This document shows, one piece after another, positions 1 through 4,594 of a stretch of DNA of 64,000 nt. Under the pieces are notes generated by a model, which searched no databases, had not been told where the DNA came from, and saw nothing but the letters and a program-made list of their open reading frames with translations. Positions within the stretch are counted from its first letter, which is position 1; each line of letters begins with the position of its first letter. Source of the stretch: Paenibacillus sanguinis 2301083 = DSM 16941 (lineage in GTDB: Bacteria > Bacillota > Bacilli > Paenibacillales > Paenibacillaceae). A program made the position numbers and the translations under genes. Where the stretch lies: positions 186,001-250,000 of the forward strand of contig NZ_KB895379.1 of NCBI RefSeq assembly GCF_000374825.1, in the 5' to 3' direction.

Positions 1-380
1 GAATTGCTGGGCTTAATCTCATAAACCACTGCATTCTGATCCCGGTTAATACTCCGGATCGTTCCCGTCCCGTCGGCATGCCCCTGAACGATATGACCGC
101 CAAAACGGCCGTTCGCTGCCATCGCCCGCTCCAGGTTCACCCGGCTTCCCAGCTTCAAATCCTTCAAATTGGTATTGCGGTAGGTTTGCGGCATTACATC
201 TACGGTGAAAGAAGTCGCGTTAAAAGAAATCGCGGTCAAGCATACGCCGTTAACGGATATGCTATCGCCCAATCTCAGCCCTTCTGTAACCACACTTGCC
301 GAGATGCCCAGCAACATCGCTTCACCCTGCCGGTTGATCGATTTCATCGTTCCGATCTCTTCTACGAGTCCCGTAAACAT
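1..380 (-). CDS. ribE: Riboflavin synthase alpha subunit, partial (3' end off window)
   Basis: Converts two 6,7-dimethyl-8-ribityllumazine molecules to riboflavin in the cytoplasm, the last step of riboflavin synthesis. The reading frame opens at an ATG ending at 380 and stays open to base 1, giving about 126 residues. The N-terminus MFTGLVEEIG and the segments GDSISVNGVCLT and GHIVQGHADGTG are typical of the first lumazine-binding barrel. The second barrel lies outside the window. A strong AAGGAGGG lies 8 nt before the start, inside the ribD remnant. It is downstream of an FMN riboswitch and terminator, so expression should fall when FMN is high. Identity is near certain. Confidence 0.93.
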   Translation of the reverse strand, partial: MFTGLVEEIGTMKSINRQGEAMLLGISASVVTEGLRLGDSISVNGVCLTAISFNATSFTVDVMPQTYRNTNLKDLKLGSRVNLERAMAANGRFGGHIVQGHADGTGTIRSINRDQNAVVYEIKPSN

Positions 381-495
381 CAAGCATTCCCTCCTTCACG
401 GAGCCGACGACCCGATTAGCTCCAGTCTGTCCTAAAGCCCGCTCAGCCATATCCAGCGCCAAGCCCATGTAATACTCGTCATCGATGACCTTCAT
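322..495 (-). pseudogene. ribD: ribD remnant: about 30 codons left of the deaminase/reductase gene
   Basis: The frame starts with ATG at 495 behind an AGAGGAG ribosome site and reads MKVIDDEYYMGLALDMAERA then LGQTGANRVVGSV, which matches the RibD deaminase N-terminus (family form has NPVVGCV). After about 32 codons homology stops exactly where the ribE ribosome site begins, and the frame runs on out of phase through the start of ribE to a stop at 322. The zinc-site cysteines, the HAE motif and the whole reductase domain are absent. It looks like a deletion of nearly all of ribD that kept the leader and the ribE start. It may act as a short translated leader coupled to ribE. RibD activity would have to come from elsewhere in the genome. 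Confidence 0.8.
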
Positions 496-529
496 CCGTC
501 CCACTCCTCTTTTCCCCTTACAAACCCTA

Positions 530-567
530 ACAAGCAAAAACAACCCTGCCGTAATCCGGCAGGGTTG
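530..567 (-). terminator. Rho-independent terminator in the rib leader
   Basis: CAACCCTGCC at 541-550 pairs perfectly with GGCAGGGTTG at 558-567 around a 7-nt loop, and on the minus strand is followed by TTTTT. It lies between the FMN riboswitch and the ribD remnant, where a riboswitch expression platform is expected. Confidence 0.85.
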
Positions 568-772
568 ATATGAGAGTGATTCTACGCAAGTCAAAAATTA
601 GCTGTTGTCAAATCTTATCCTATCTTAAATTAACAAGACGGATCGACAAATTCAACAAAGCAAAGCTGTTACTCCACCAGCTCACTTCTCCCATTGTGAA
701 AAGTAGAACTTTGCCGAGTAAAGCCCTTGGTTCCTGACACATCGACGGTTTAGCCTATGTGTCACTTGCGTT

Positions 773-921
773 TTCCTTCTCCCATCCAGACTATACTGTC
801 GGTCCCGGAATCTCACCGGCTCAGCCGCATATGCTTGCTTCAAACATAATACGGGTCACGGACTTGTGCTCAGAAGAGCCATCACCGTCGGTGGGGAGTT
901 GCACCCCGCCCCGAAGGATTA
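773..921 (-). promoter_or_regulatory. FMN riboswitch (RFN element)
   Basis: Read on the minus strand, the conserved RFN blocks occur in order: ATCCTTCGGGGC with a GGGTGCAACTCCCC helix, CCGACGGTGATGG, GAGCCGGTGAGATTCCGGG, then GACCGACAGTATAGTCTGGA and GGGAGAAGG, whose CCTTC/GAAGG ends close the P1 helix. Known RFN aptamers bind FMN and cause early termination or block translation of rib genes. The distal terminator at 530-567 fits the termination mode. The 200 nt between aptamer and terminator presumably holds the antiterminator, which I did not fold. Confidence 0.95.
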
Positions 922-950
922 CAATTATTTTGTTAGTTGCTTTCGGGCTA

Positions 951-1045: not shown

Positions 1046-3340
1046 TTAAAACTCAAACCTGAAATAAGTATGATACCGTTCATGATGAACTTGGTGAAGC
1101 GGAACAAAACGAATGCCATCCACAGTAAACTCAGGCCCCGTCATACTTGGCTCTAGCCGCCGGACAAACTCTTCGGTACTACAAGACCAAGTCAATAATT
1201 GTTGCCCTTCGTGAAGAGCAGCCATAATGTAAGGCCCGTAGCAAACACTCTTTATGCGAGCATCATCCGGTGCCGCCATCCATCTGATCGCATAGGGAAA
1301 CAACAACTCAATTCGATCTCCATCATGAGCTTGCTGCAGTACAAGATAACCGTCTTTGATGTCTACCTGCTGCCGCTTACCGTTAATTGTGACCTCAGGC
1401 AAGCCCTTTATCCACTCCGGAATTCGGAAATGAATCCGTATTTCTCGTCCTCCCGATAGGATGAATGCCGCCGTGTCTGCCAGCTTCTCCCGCTTCCGGG
1501 TTTGAGAAAGTGTTATGCCTTGCTCCTCCCACTCCAGGATGGACGGAATGTACAAATTGACATATAGCGTATCACCATCATGGAAATATATACTCTCCTG
1601 ATACTTAAAGTGGTTTTCCAGTCCAGTGCCATGGCAGCAGGTATTCTCGTGTGTGTCAAATTTCTTGCAGGACCCCGGCGCCAGCGGCAGGAAATAGGTG
1701 CTCCCCCCCTCAGCGCACTGATTATTTTCTGTGGCCAGGATATGATTGTAGAGCGTCCTTTCGTAGTAGTCCATGTACTCTGGCTTTGGCTCAAAGCTGT
1801 ACAGCTCCCTTGTCAGCTTCAGCATGTTGTAGCTGGCACAGGTTTCCGCCGTTTTGTCTGTCAGATAGGCAGCAATTTTGCCAGGCTCACGGAACATTTC
1901 CGTCTCCCCCACGCCACCGATCGAATAGGCATGATCTTCGATAACCATTCGCCAGAAGTTCTTGGCGGCCTCATAATACGCTGCATTTCCTTCCGCCTCG
2001 TATAGCTTCAAAGCTCCGATGATTTGCGGTATATGCTGATTCGCATGCATATCGCCCAGAGTGTCCATGTTTGCCTGCATTGGAAATAGCAGCTTTTCGT
2101 TATCGAAGTATTTGGCAGCTTCCACGTAGTGTGCCTCATTTGTAATCAGATATAGCTGGGTCATCACTTCATTCATTCCGCCAAATTCTCCGGCAATATA
2201 AAGCGACCACATTCGCTGGAGCTGCTCCTGGGATAAGCGGCTAAGCCGATGATGCACCCAATCTCCCAGCCGGGCACATATTTGCAGGGCCGCTTCCTGA
2301 CCCGCCAGAACGTAGCATTCCAGCAGGCCAGCCATAATTTTGTGCAGGGTATAATAAGGCGCCCAGATCGTGGGATAAGTCGAATATTGCTCCAACAAAT
2401 CAAATTGCTCTTCCGAATAGGCGCTGAGAAATCGCGAATGCACCCCAGGCATCGCCGACATCGCCTGTTGGCAGCAGTCCAATTGCTCAATCATATATTC
2501 AATCTTCGCTTTGACCGCCTCGCTTCCCCCCGTAGCATGGTAAGCCAGGGCCAAGGCTGACAAATAGTGACCTGTTGTATGACCTTTCAGGTTACATTCC
2601 GGAGCGTCCCAGCCGGTCATGGGCTTGGCCCCTTTGACATCTAACCCGGCAGCTATGCGAAAATTATATAGCATTTGATCATCGTCAACGGAACAGATAT
2701 ACTCCAGAGAACGGTCCATCGCATCAGCAAATTCCGTGCCTGGTTCCAGAGATACGCTTTGCCCATTAAACACATGAACCTTCTTCTGGGGCAAAGCAAG
2801 CTGATCGACGGCTTCCACTACAGTAATTTTCGCTTCTGTCTCCCAATTGCTATTCTCCAAGCGCCCCTTGACAATATACCTACCATTCAGAATCCATTTG
2901 GTCCAATCGGCTTTCTCCCAAACGACATTATGAACCGTACGACTGCCCGTATCATTTCTGACTACAACAACACCGGGCAATTGGGGAACCTCACCTTCTT
3001 GCACACGCAAATCCACCGGATAAACCTCAACAATTTCAGCTTTATATTCTTCTTCCAGCACGGTAGCCTCAAACGTCTTCTGCACGCTTTCCCCTTCATA
3101 AGTGACGGTCGCCACTAGCGGAATGATACGATTGCCTACTCCATGAGAAGGCCTGGTTACCTTGCCCGTATGGCTGATAAACAAAGTTTCTCTGGACTCC
3201 CAAGTAATTATTGAACCATTTTGCCCTTTTACCGGAAGCTGCAAGTCGGTATCCACCGTGTACAAATTGCCGATATATATACCTTCACAGTCAAGCCGCG
3301 CTATCTCTAGCCGCCGCTCCCTAGCTGCATTCCTATCCAT
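1046..3340 (-). CDS. GH127-type (DUF1680) glycoside hydrolase, putative beta-L-arabinofuranosidase
   Basis: About 764 residues. Residues 12-100 resemble an atrophied bacterial Ig-like domain (W-x-S core, G-K-V-T-R-P turn) and 105-180 a second Ig-like module. The DUF1680 catalytic region then runs from about 190, with GWDAPECNLKGHTTGHY near 243, E-T-C at 499-501 and T-C-C-H-G-T-G near 567. In Bifidobacterium longum HypBA1 the matching Glu and three Cys bind zinc and one Cys is the nucleophile, so catalytic residues look intact. No signal peptide, so probably cytoplasmic. The ATG at 3340 is preferred because GAGAGG abuts the earlier ATG. It follows the transporter gene by about 20 nt, so the two probably share an mRNA. 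Exact substrate is inferred: the family also contains other specificities. Confidence 0.85.
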   Translation of the reverse strand: MDRNAARERRLEIARLDCEGIYIGNLYTVDTDLQLPVKGQNGSIITWESRETLFISHTGKVTRPSHGVGNRIIPLVATVTYEGESVQKTFEATVLEEEYKAEIVEVYPVDLRVQEGEVPQLPGVVVVRNDTGSRTVHNVVWEKADWTKWILNGRYIVKGRLENSNWETEAKITVVEAVDQLALPQKKVHVFNGQSVSLEPGTEFADAMDRSLEYICSVDDDQMLYNFRIAAGLDVKGAKPMTGWDAPECNLKGHTTGHYLSALALAYHATGGSEAVKAKIEYMIEQLDCCQQAMSAMPGVHSRFLSAYSEEQFDLLEQYSTYPTIWAPYYTLHKIMAGLLECYVLAGQEAALQICARLGDWVHHRLSRLSQEQLQRMWSLYIAGEFGGMNEVMTQLYLITNEAHYVEAAKYFDNEKLLFPMQANMDTLGDMHANQHIPQIIGALKLYEAEGNAAYYEAAKNFWRMVIEDHAYSIGGVGETEMFREPGKIAAYLTDKTAETCASYNMLKLTRELYSFEPKPEYMDYYERTLYNHILATENNQCAEGGSTYFLPLAPGSCKKFDTHENTCCHGTGLENHFKYQESIYFHDGDTLYVNLYIPSILEWEEQGITLSQTRKREKLADTAAFILSGGREIRIHFRIPEWIKGLPEVTINGKRQQVDIKDGYLVLQQAHDGDRIELLFPYAIRWMAAPDDARIKSVCYGPYIMAALHEGQQLLTWSCSTEEFVRRLEPSMTGPEFTVDGIRFVPLHQVHHERYHTYFRFEF

Positions 3341-3361
3341 CTGTGTCATCCTCTCTTTTCT

Positions 3362-4594
3362 CTAAGCCTGCTTCAGATTTCCCAGCTTGTTCTTCACCCA
3401 ATTCTTGCCTTCAACAATTCGAGACATTGCCATGCAAATCGCCGGATCGCCCGTTACGTTAACCATAGTGCAGAGCGGATCTGTAATCGTCCCCATAATT
3501 ACGAGAATTGGCACCGCTTCCATAGGAAAGCCGAAGGCTGTGCAAATAAACATTTCCCCGATAAAGCCCCCGCTAGGAATGGTTCCGACAATAATGCCGC
3601 TAATCAAAGCCACTAAAATGGCTGTAACCATATCCGCCGGGCCCATGGTCAGGTTGAAGATGCCGAACAGGAAAACGATTTTAATGATTTGCACAGCCAC
3701 GACACCATTCTTGTGCATGCTGGCCCCTAGCGGAATGATAATATCACTGATCTCATCAGGAATACCCATATCCTTCACAGCCAGCCTGTTCACAGGGATA
3801 CAGGCAGTGCTGCTGCAAGTCCCCATCGCTGTCGTCATCGGCAACCAGATGTTCTTCCAATAGCGCTTCAACCCGGTTCGGCCCCCGCCATAATACGATA
3901 CGATTACGGAGAACAGGATGAAAAATAAAATGCAGAATATAGAATAAATGATTGCTGCCCGCCCAACGGACCATACCACCTGATTGCCCACATTACCGAT
4001 TAATGTCGCAAAATAACAGGCAATACCGACCGGAGCATAATACATGATGATGGATACTACCTTGTTCAAAATGGCTGACAAGCTATGAAGCAGCTTGGCA
4101 ACAGGTTCCCCCGCTTCTCCAATTGAACTGACGGACACGCCGAACAAAATGGCAAATACGATCAAGGCCATCATATTTTTTAAAGAGAGCAGTTCCACAA
4201 AGTCAGGAACCGTAAACAAACGAACAAAATCCAGAGAAGTGCCATCCACCTGTGCCGCTTCCCCAAAGGTGACGTCCGAATTCAGCGCAGGATTAAACAC
4301 CAGGCCGCTGACTAAGGCCAGCACAGCAGTAATTAATCCTGTTACGACGATAACCATGAAGAAGAGACCCAAAATCTTTCCGAGCTTCTTCAAATTAGTC
4401 ATGCTGGCGATAGAACTCGCAATGGAAACAAAGACAAGCGGAACAATGATACAGAACACCAAATTCAAAAATACATCCGCAAAGGGCTGCAGAACGGAGG
4501 CTCGCTCACCGAGAATGGTTCCGGCAATTCCGCCTATCAGTACACCGACCAGCAAAATGATTGAAAATCGATAACTTTTCAAAACTTGCAACAT
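3362..4594 (-). CDS. SLC1/DAACS-family solute:cation symporter with altered binding motifs
   Basis: A 410-residue membrane protein with eight or more hydrophobic segments and the DAACS landmarks: IVPLVFVSIASSI early on, a serine-rich TCSSTACIPV loop, PLGASMHKNGVV and TDPLCTMVNVTGD. Family members such as GltPh import acidic amino acids with sodium. Two motifs differ here: the NMDGT motif reads HKNGV (294-298), and the arginine before TMVNVTGD, which holds the substrate side-chain carboxylate, is Cys375. Cys or Thr at that site is found in the neutral amino-acid carriers ASCT2/ASCT1, so an acidic substrate is unlikely (inference). It leads the two-gene unit with the GH127 gene and is divergent from an AraC regulator. 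Confidence 0.85.
   Translation of the reverse strand: MLQVLKSYRFSIILLVGVLIGGIAGTILGERASVLQPFADVFLNLVFCIIVPLVFVSIASSIASMTNLKKLGKILGLFFMVIVVTGLITAVLALVSGLVFNPALNSDVTFGEAAQVDGTSLDFVRLFTVPDFVELLSLKNMMALIVFAILFGVSVSSIGEAGEPVAKLLHSLSAILNKVVSIIMYYAPVGIACYFATLIGNVGNQVVWSVGRAAIIYSIFCILFFILFSVIVSYYGGGRTGLKRYWKNIWLPMTTAMGTCSSTACIPVNRLAVKDMGIPDEISDIIIPLGASMHKNGVVAVQIIKIVFLFGIFNLTMGPADMVTAILVALISGIIVGTIPSGGFIGEMFICTAFGFPMEAVPILVIMGTITDPLCTMVNVTGDPAICMAMSRIVEGKNWVKNKLGNLKQA

Follow-up and report, generated by a model that had tools for sequence, protein, structure and literature searches.

The window, a stretch of 64,000 nucleotides from Paenibacillus sanguinis, begins with the leading part of a riboflavin operon on the minus strand, which reads from 5' to 3' as an FMN riboswitch, a terminator, a ribosome site, a short RibD-like frame, and the ribosome site and start of ribE. 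The riboswitch aptamer (RFN element; 770..922, minus strand) matches the full covariance model RF00050 of Rfam, positions 1-138, with 107.1 bits against a gathering score of 66.2 bits. Between the aptamer and the RibD-like frame lies an intrinsic terminator (541..567, minus strand) with an 11-pair stem, 8 of the pairs being G-C, and a T tail; one terminator was found here against a mean of 0.6 in shuffles, so that position and near-identity in P. senegalimassiliensis are the main grounds for the call. The 5' part of ribE, for riboflavin synthase, occupies 1..380 of the minus strand with its start ATG at 380 (TIGR00187, 240.8 bits over 156.6), and downstream of it, outside the window, come ribBA (PRK09311, 684.5 bits against a cut-off of 569) and then ribH (TIGR00114, 194.2 bits against 84.6). 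Riboswitch, terminator, ribE, ribBA and ribH stand in the identical order in the FMN-riboswitch operon of the Bacillus subtilis type, whose gene order is given in the abstract of PMC9048828 as ribDG-E-AB-H. The window also carries a frame of 767 aa at 1046-3349; at the corresponding place P. senegalimassiliensis has a CRISPR-like array (L072 1-2050) of more than 20 copies of repeats of about 32 nt, mostly spaced every 65-69 nt, whose end lies about 110 nt ahead of the FMN riboswitch in that genome.

The RibD-like frame has 57 codons (322..495, minus strand; ATG at 495-493, stop at 322) and is preceded by the ribosome site AGAGGAG at 510-504. Only its first 33 codons (397..495, minus strand) derive from ribD: they align with RibD residues 1-33 and share 94% identity with the operonic RibD of P. 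senegalimassiliensis SIT18 (G025), the nearest relative compared. Past this part the frame crosses the ribosome site and start of ribE out of frame and overlaps ribE by 59 nt. The 57-residue product returned no match in Pfam or NCBIfam, and the deaminase and reductase domains of RibD (TIGR00326) are absent from it. P. senegalimassiliensis has a complete ribD of 369 codons at the same place (L072 2591-3700), and alignment to this locus puts the deletion junction at 389..397 of the minus strand: homology runs to GGCTCCGTG and is followed by a new AA and then by GGAGGGAATGCTTGATG, the ribE ribosome site and the start, with the ribE Shine-Dalgarno site AAGGAGGG (396-389) directly after the junction. 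In all, the window lacks 1012 nt of the relative (L072 2690-3701) and has 2 nt of its own, and the DNA of the two genomes is 87% identical upstream of the junction and 95% identical downstream. An earlier note, made from the letters of the window, had described the RFN aptamer, the terminator, the ribosome site, the RibD N-terminus and an abrupt junction into ribE, all of which are confirmed, the junction by this comparison with an intact ribD. The same note had reported two changes at conserved positions, P to R and C to S. The first stands, as the R (CCG to CGG) is private to the window at a residue that is P in all 17 intact copies printed, whereas the serine turns out to be normal: the intact RibD of the relative reads NPVVGS, and the intact copies of four further genomes (G020, G023, G036 and G038) have S as well. 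Compared with the relative, the amino-acid changes in the 33 codons are P to R and T to A. With only these 2 non-synonymous and 4 synonymous differences, the deletion is probably recent.

In a profile search of the contigs a single full RibD came up, at C7:150593-151633 (TIGR00326, 407.4 bits over 156.35), in agreement with the suggestion of the earlier note that RibD might come from another locus; the same profile also gave two weaker matches of 20.1 and 12.2 bits. The enzyme encoded on C7 carries both domains (PF00383, 75.1 bits; PF01872, 191.4 bits), and its RibD_C domain (PF01872) is the single match to that family in the genome. Its residues 6-359 of 363 align with the RibD of PDB 2b3z, presumably that of B. 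subtilis, at E 9.7e-117, with the HAE and PC..C motifs visible. Split enzymes, another source of the two activities that had been suggested, are not supported: the candidate stand-alone deaminase, a match on C21, is the tRNA adenosine deaminase TadA (180.2 bits over 150), and no second RibD_C match that could be a stand-alone reductase was found in the genome.

The ribD on C7 belongs to a cluster in the order hxlR (divergent), a FAD monooxygenase (FMO), GTP cyclohydrolase II (ribA) and ribD. The FMO has the FAD-binding domain PF01494 over residues 5-344 (137 over 22 bits), and we take it to be a class A flavin monooxygenase; its nearest solved structure is 8uiu, 'Flavin monooxygenase' (E 5.6e-62), and the literature matches listed for that structure contain nothing on clusters of FMO and rib genes. 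The GTP cyclohydrolase II scores 155.4 over 23.3 bits for PF00925 and 192.6 over 148 for the subfamily PRK00393, and stays below the equivalog cut-off of TIGR00505 (176.2 vs 205.85 bits). It differs in its N-terminal part, and its loop before EGRGIGL is one residue longer; the aligned cluster enzymes conserve residues that match what we take to be the zinc cysteines and Tyr105, Asp126 and Arg128 of the E. coli enzyme. There is no FMN riboswitch at the cluster, the only two of the genome being on C4 and C3, and none reaches the gathering score at the cluster loci L008, L073, L074, L105, L095 and L089. Compared with the two RibDs of P. senegalimassiliensis, the cluster RibD shares 95% identity with the cluster copy and 52% with the operonic one. 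Between the two genomes dN/dS is 0.046 for the cluster ribD, 0.076 for ribE, 0.025 for ribBA and 0.017 for ribH, within a range of 0.017-0.18 over the operon and cluster genes. The dependence on outside flavin that the earlier note had offered as another way out is not supported, as the genome has RibD, RibE, RibBA and RibH, all with low dN/dS.

The existence of the full gene at this place in P. senegalimassiliensis might suggest that the junction is an assembly artefact, with a full operonic ribD in the cell of which 1 kb was lost in assembly. We consider this very unlikely. The junction sits about 186 kb inside a 361-kb contig, the remnant has its private P to R change at a residue kept in the intact copies, and a collapse of repeats is unexpected because the operonic and cluster RibDs share only 52% identity. 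In addition, the genome has a full ribD elsewhere, and P. turicensis is also without an operonic ribD. A second ribD could be hidden in a gap of the draft assembly, which consists of 36 contigs with a completeness of 99.99%.

Among 40 genomes of the genus, 37 have ribD directly behind the FMN riboswitch, as in the B. subtilis type of operon, with the RibD match 225-372 nt after the riboswitch. The three genomes without a riboswitch-borne RibD are that of the window, that of P. turicensis (G034), both of which carry the FMO, and G026, which is 88% complete, lacks a full RibD and has a single riboswitch without rib genes beside it. The FMO was found in six of the 40 genomes (E<=1e-20), and the same six hold a RibD not preceded by a riboswitch. 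Four of these carriers (G001, G002, G005 and G025) retain both copies, the cluster copy of G002 being interrupted by a stretch that reads as unknown, and the operonic copy has been lost from the other two. The operonic riboswitch of P. turicensis leads straight to ribE with no ribD found between them. In this genome the cluster ribD is immediately followed by ABC importer-like genes (L074 5754-8375), among them one for an NMT1-like binding protein, and relatives of their ATPase occur at 4 of the 24 loci clustered. Loss of the operonic ribD in two of six carriers against none of 33 non-carriers gives a one-sided Fisher p of 0.020, with G026 left out and kinship ignored, as it is in all our counts, and the genus-level association of the FMO with this loss is weak. 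Because both copies persist in P. senegalimassiliensis, the nearest relative, the loss in the window is most simply regarded as separate from that in P. turicensis. The window is an intermediate, and its genome and those of its relatives preserve the steps, from both copies through a relic of 33 codons to clean loss. In a RibD tree of 51 rows, cluster and operonic RibDs fall on the two sides of one branch with support of 100/100, and a larger tree of 90 rows, including one bad row (L021, branch length 10), has the same split. The 51-row tree is unrooted, carries a long-branch warning and takes its operonic rows all from the genus of the window, and what it shows is the distinctness of the two groups of RibD, not their origin.

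The remnant itself had been proposed to serve ribE as a leader peptide or as a frame for coupling, a role compatible with the loss of ribD as such. Its start, ribosome site and frame are intact, and over 397-495 only 4 differences from the relative fall on 23.2 synonymous sites, a smaller share than in ribE, ribBA or ribH (binomial p 0.003 against a pS of 0.47, but 0.28 against the rate of hxlR). Low change of this kind also fits a recent deletion, and the 59-nt out-of-frame overlap means that ribosomes translating the remnant would run over the ribE start. Nor do the other genomes support such a role: ribD is entirely gone from the operon of P. turicensis, and no such frame survives in 22 other ribD-less leaders, whose five matches to the RibD N-terminus have E values of 1.3 or worse, as expected by chance. 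A role as leader peptide or in coupling to ribE is highly improbable. A special synonymous constraint on the 5' end of ribD in general was considered separately and rejected, as no consistent sign of one appears in the intact relatives.

To look beyond the genus, named genomes were scanned with the FMO alignment, which yielded 141 relatives. Among the best 80 of these 141, FMO, ribA and ribD occur together at 61 loci, hxlR, FMO and ribA without an adjacent ribD at six (L131, L141, L145, L146, L150 and L166), and the FMO alone at 13; hxlR was found at 37. The cluster occurs in two gene orders and in genera that include Paenibacillus, Saccharibacillus, Gottfriedia, Mesobacillus, Niallia, Peribacillus, Lysinibacillus, Ureibacillus and Solibacillus. 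At 42 of the same 80 loci, in both gene orders, a gene for an NT5C-like 5'-nucleotidase lies by the cluster (for example L095 6989-7648); it was not found at the Paenibacillus or Saccharibacillus loci of this set. Fifty of the 61 cluster genomes were studied, three metagenome bins and eight genomes judged close to others having been dropped, and these 50 were by choice all carriers of the FMO-ribA-ribD cluster. In 46 of them the cluster RibD is the only RibD (E<=1e-40). Two RibDs occur in P. senegalimassiliensis, P. brevis and P. antibioticophila, and one with an additional fragment in G079. On C46 of G079 (L199 ~2700-3800) lies a broken second copy of the cluster ribA and ribD, with an internal stop in ribA and ribD matched over only about 114 residues. 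All 50 genomes have one to three FMN riboswitches, none of which precedes the cluster ribD when the tables are compared by eye, and the 21 riboswitch operons that were read in genomes from this set are all without ribD. The missing stretch and the single remaining RibD of the window genome are matched by the same state, or by further loss, in many relatives. In an even sample of the order, RibD is present in 198 of 198 genomes and the FMO in 38 (E<=1e-75). It adjoins ribD in seven, where it accompanies the sole RibD in every case, four of the seven being apparently among the 50 genomes above; in 29 it is apart from RibD, so the FMO family also occurs without riboflavin genes, and for G156 and G235 the place of RibD was not covered.

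The departure from the B. subtilis type goes further than a ribD that is absent or cut down, since in 13 of the 21 operons read the GTP cyclohydrolase II domain is also gone and the RibB part alone remains (201-252 aa), against a full RibBA of 396-434 aa in the other eight. When GTP cyclohydrolase II types are divided by PF00925 score (over 240 vs under 170 bits), the operon type is absent from 29 of the 50 cluster genomes, and in 17 of the 50 the cluster enzyme is the sole GTP cyclohydrolase II. Nine operons from these 17 genomes were read, and all nine retain ribE, ribB and ribH. P. brasilensis and P. ottowii have a decayed piece of GTP cyclohydrolase II downstream of ribH (L170 and L206, ~1630-1730).

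These counts bear on whether the cluster serves only another pathway, leading to a specialised pyrimidine or pteridine-like product, while the strain relies on imported riboflavin. The association of FMO, GTP cyclohydrolase II and RibD resembles the start of toxoflavin and pseudoiodinine synthesis, as outlined in part of PMC9911603. An importer is plausible as well, for the second FMN riboswitch of the genome, on contig C3, precedes a transporter frame (L011 4108-5157) with a weak likeness to TIGR00950 (59.8 bits, under the cut-off of 230.2), which makes it a possible candidate riboflavin importer; we take TIGR00950 to be of the DMT/EamA type and the frame to have presumed likeness to RibN. 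Against this, ribE, ribBA and ribH are retained behind the riboswitch with low dN/dS, and in the 17 genomes where the cluster holds the sole GTP cyclohydrolase II every operon read keeps the late genes, so that reliance on import would need to extend throughout several genera. An exclusive role elsewhere, with dependence on imported riboflavin, is very unlikely. It could still be that the cluster RibD serves mainly another pathway. We infer that the cluster enzymes, RibD included, work in riboflavin synthesis, as they are the only ones present.

As the only full RibD found in the genome sits in the cluster on another contig, the operon copy was most likely redundant and deleted, and we regard it as very probable that the cluster ribD made the operonic ribD redundant, that the latter was then deleted, and that riboflavin is still made. 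Redundancy would have come first, conferred by the ribD of the unlinked hxlR/FMO-ribA-ribD cluster, a second copy only distantly related to the operonic one. The operonic gene would then have been removed by a deletion of about 1 kb that spared the riboswitch, the terminator, the first 33 codons and the ribosome site of ribE, leaving the remnant frame as a presumable relic. The cluster RibD, together with RibBA and the cluster GTP cyclohydrolase II, would supply the pyrimidine precursor, and the FMN-riboswitch operon would now control ribE, ribBA and ribH only. In further lineages the GTP cyclohydrolase II domain of the operon most likely also became dispensable and was then lost, with the late enzymes staying in the operon. 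As far as gene content and riboswitch positions indicate, the early steps of riboflavin synthesis have left FMN-riboswitch control in many carriers of the cluster.

In the riboflavin pathway a phosphatase step comes after RibD, and the NT5C-like protein is a candidate for this phosphatase; a cluster unit with the adjoining NT5C-like gene may hold all steps from GTP to 5-amino-6-ribitylaminouracil. More tentatively, and with considerable doubt, one could see in GTP cyclohydrolase II, RibD and the FMO, joined by the NT5C-like phosphatase at 42 of the 80 loci (best 80 of 141), a self-contained module that leads from GTP to 5-amino-6-ribitylaminouracil and, via the FMO, to a new oxidised pyrimidine compound. 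Riboflavin synthesis in dozens of Bacillales species would then use the intermediate of the module, these species having given up their own first enzymes, and the first steps would answer to the HxlR-type regulator where present and not to the FMN riboswitch.

Toxoflavin and pseudoiodinine synthesis also place GTP cyclohydrolase II and RibD outside the rib operon, according to an excerpt of PMC9911603. The clusters described here differ in the FMO, in the frequent presence of HxlR (37 of 80 loci, best 80 of 141) and of a 5'-nucleotidase-like gene (42 of the same 80), and in that the paralogue replaces the operon copy; no toxoflavin-type partner (methyltransferase, WD-40 or sulphatase-modifying-factor protein) was among the six families common to at least 4 of the 24 loci clustered. 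Redundant riboflavin genes are likewise reported for Aeromonas salmonicida, an example of riboflavin gene duplication (PMC10012899), but the redundancy here was resolved by the loss of the operon copy. A passage of PMC3766115 reports that most of the riboflavin genes of Firmicutes, which often form a single operon, are under FMN riboswitches. In several genera the early half of the pathway would stand outside this control, in a conserved unit with the FMO, and genome reconstructions that consider only the operon would miss the cluster and may call such strains riboflavin auxotrophs. What the window shows is an instance of a broad pattern, one absent from the literature matches listed: at the level of titles and abstracts these mention neither an FMO-ribA-ribD cluster nor the loss of operonic ribD in Bacillales, and an earlier mention is possible.

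Tandem FMN riboswitches, 101-462 nt apart, are present in 12 of the 50 cluster genomes (G048, at C14:339811-340189, and G051, G062, G063, G066, G067, G068, G072, G076, G077, G083 and G088), all of them Lysinibacillus, Ureibacillus or Solibacillus. The literature match listed for such tandems concerns another riboswitch class. In the five operons of this kind that were read (G048, G051, G083, G068 and G063), the tandem riboswitches precede ribE.
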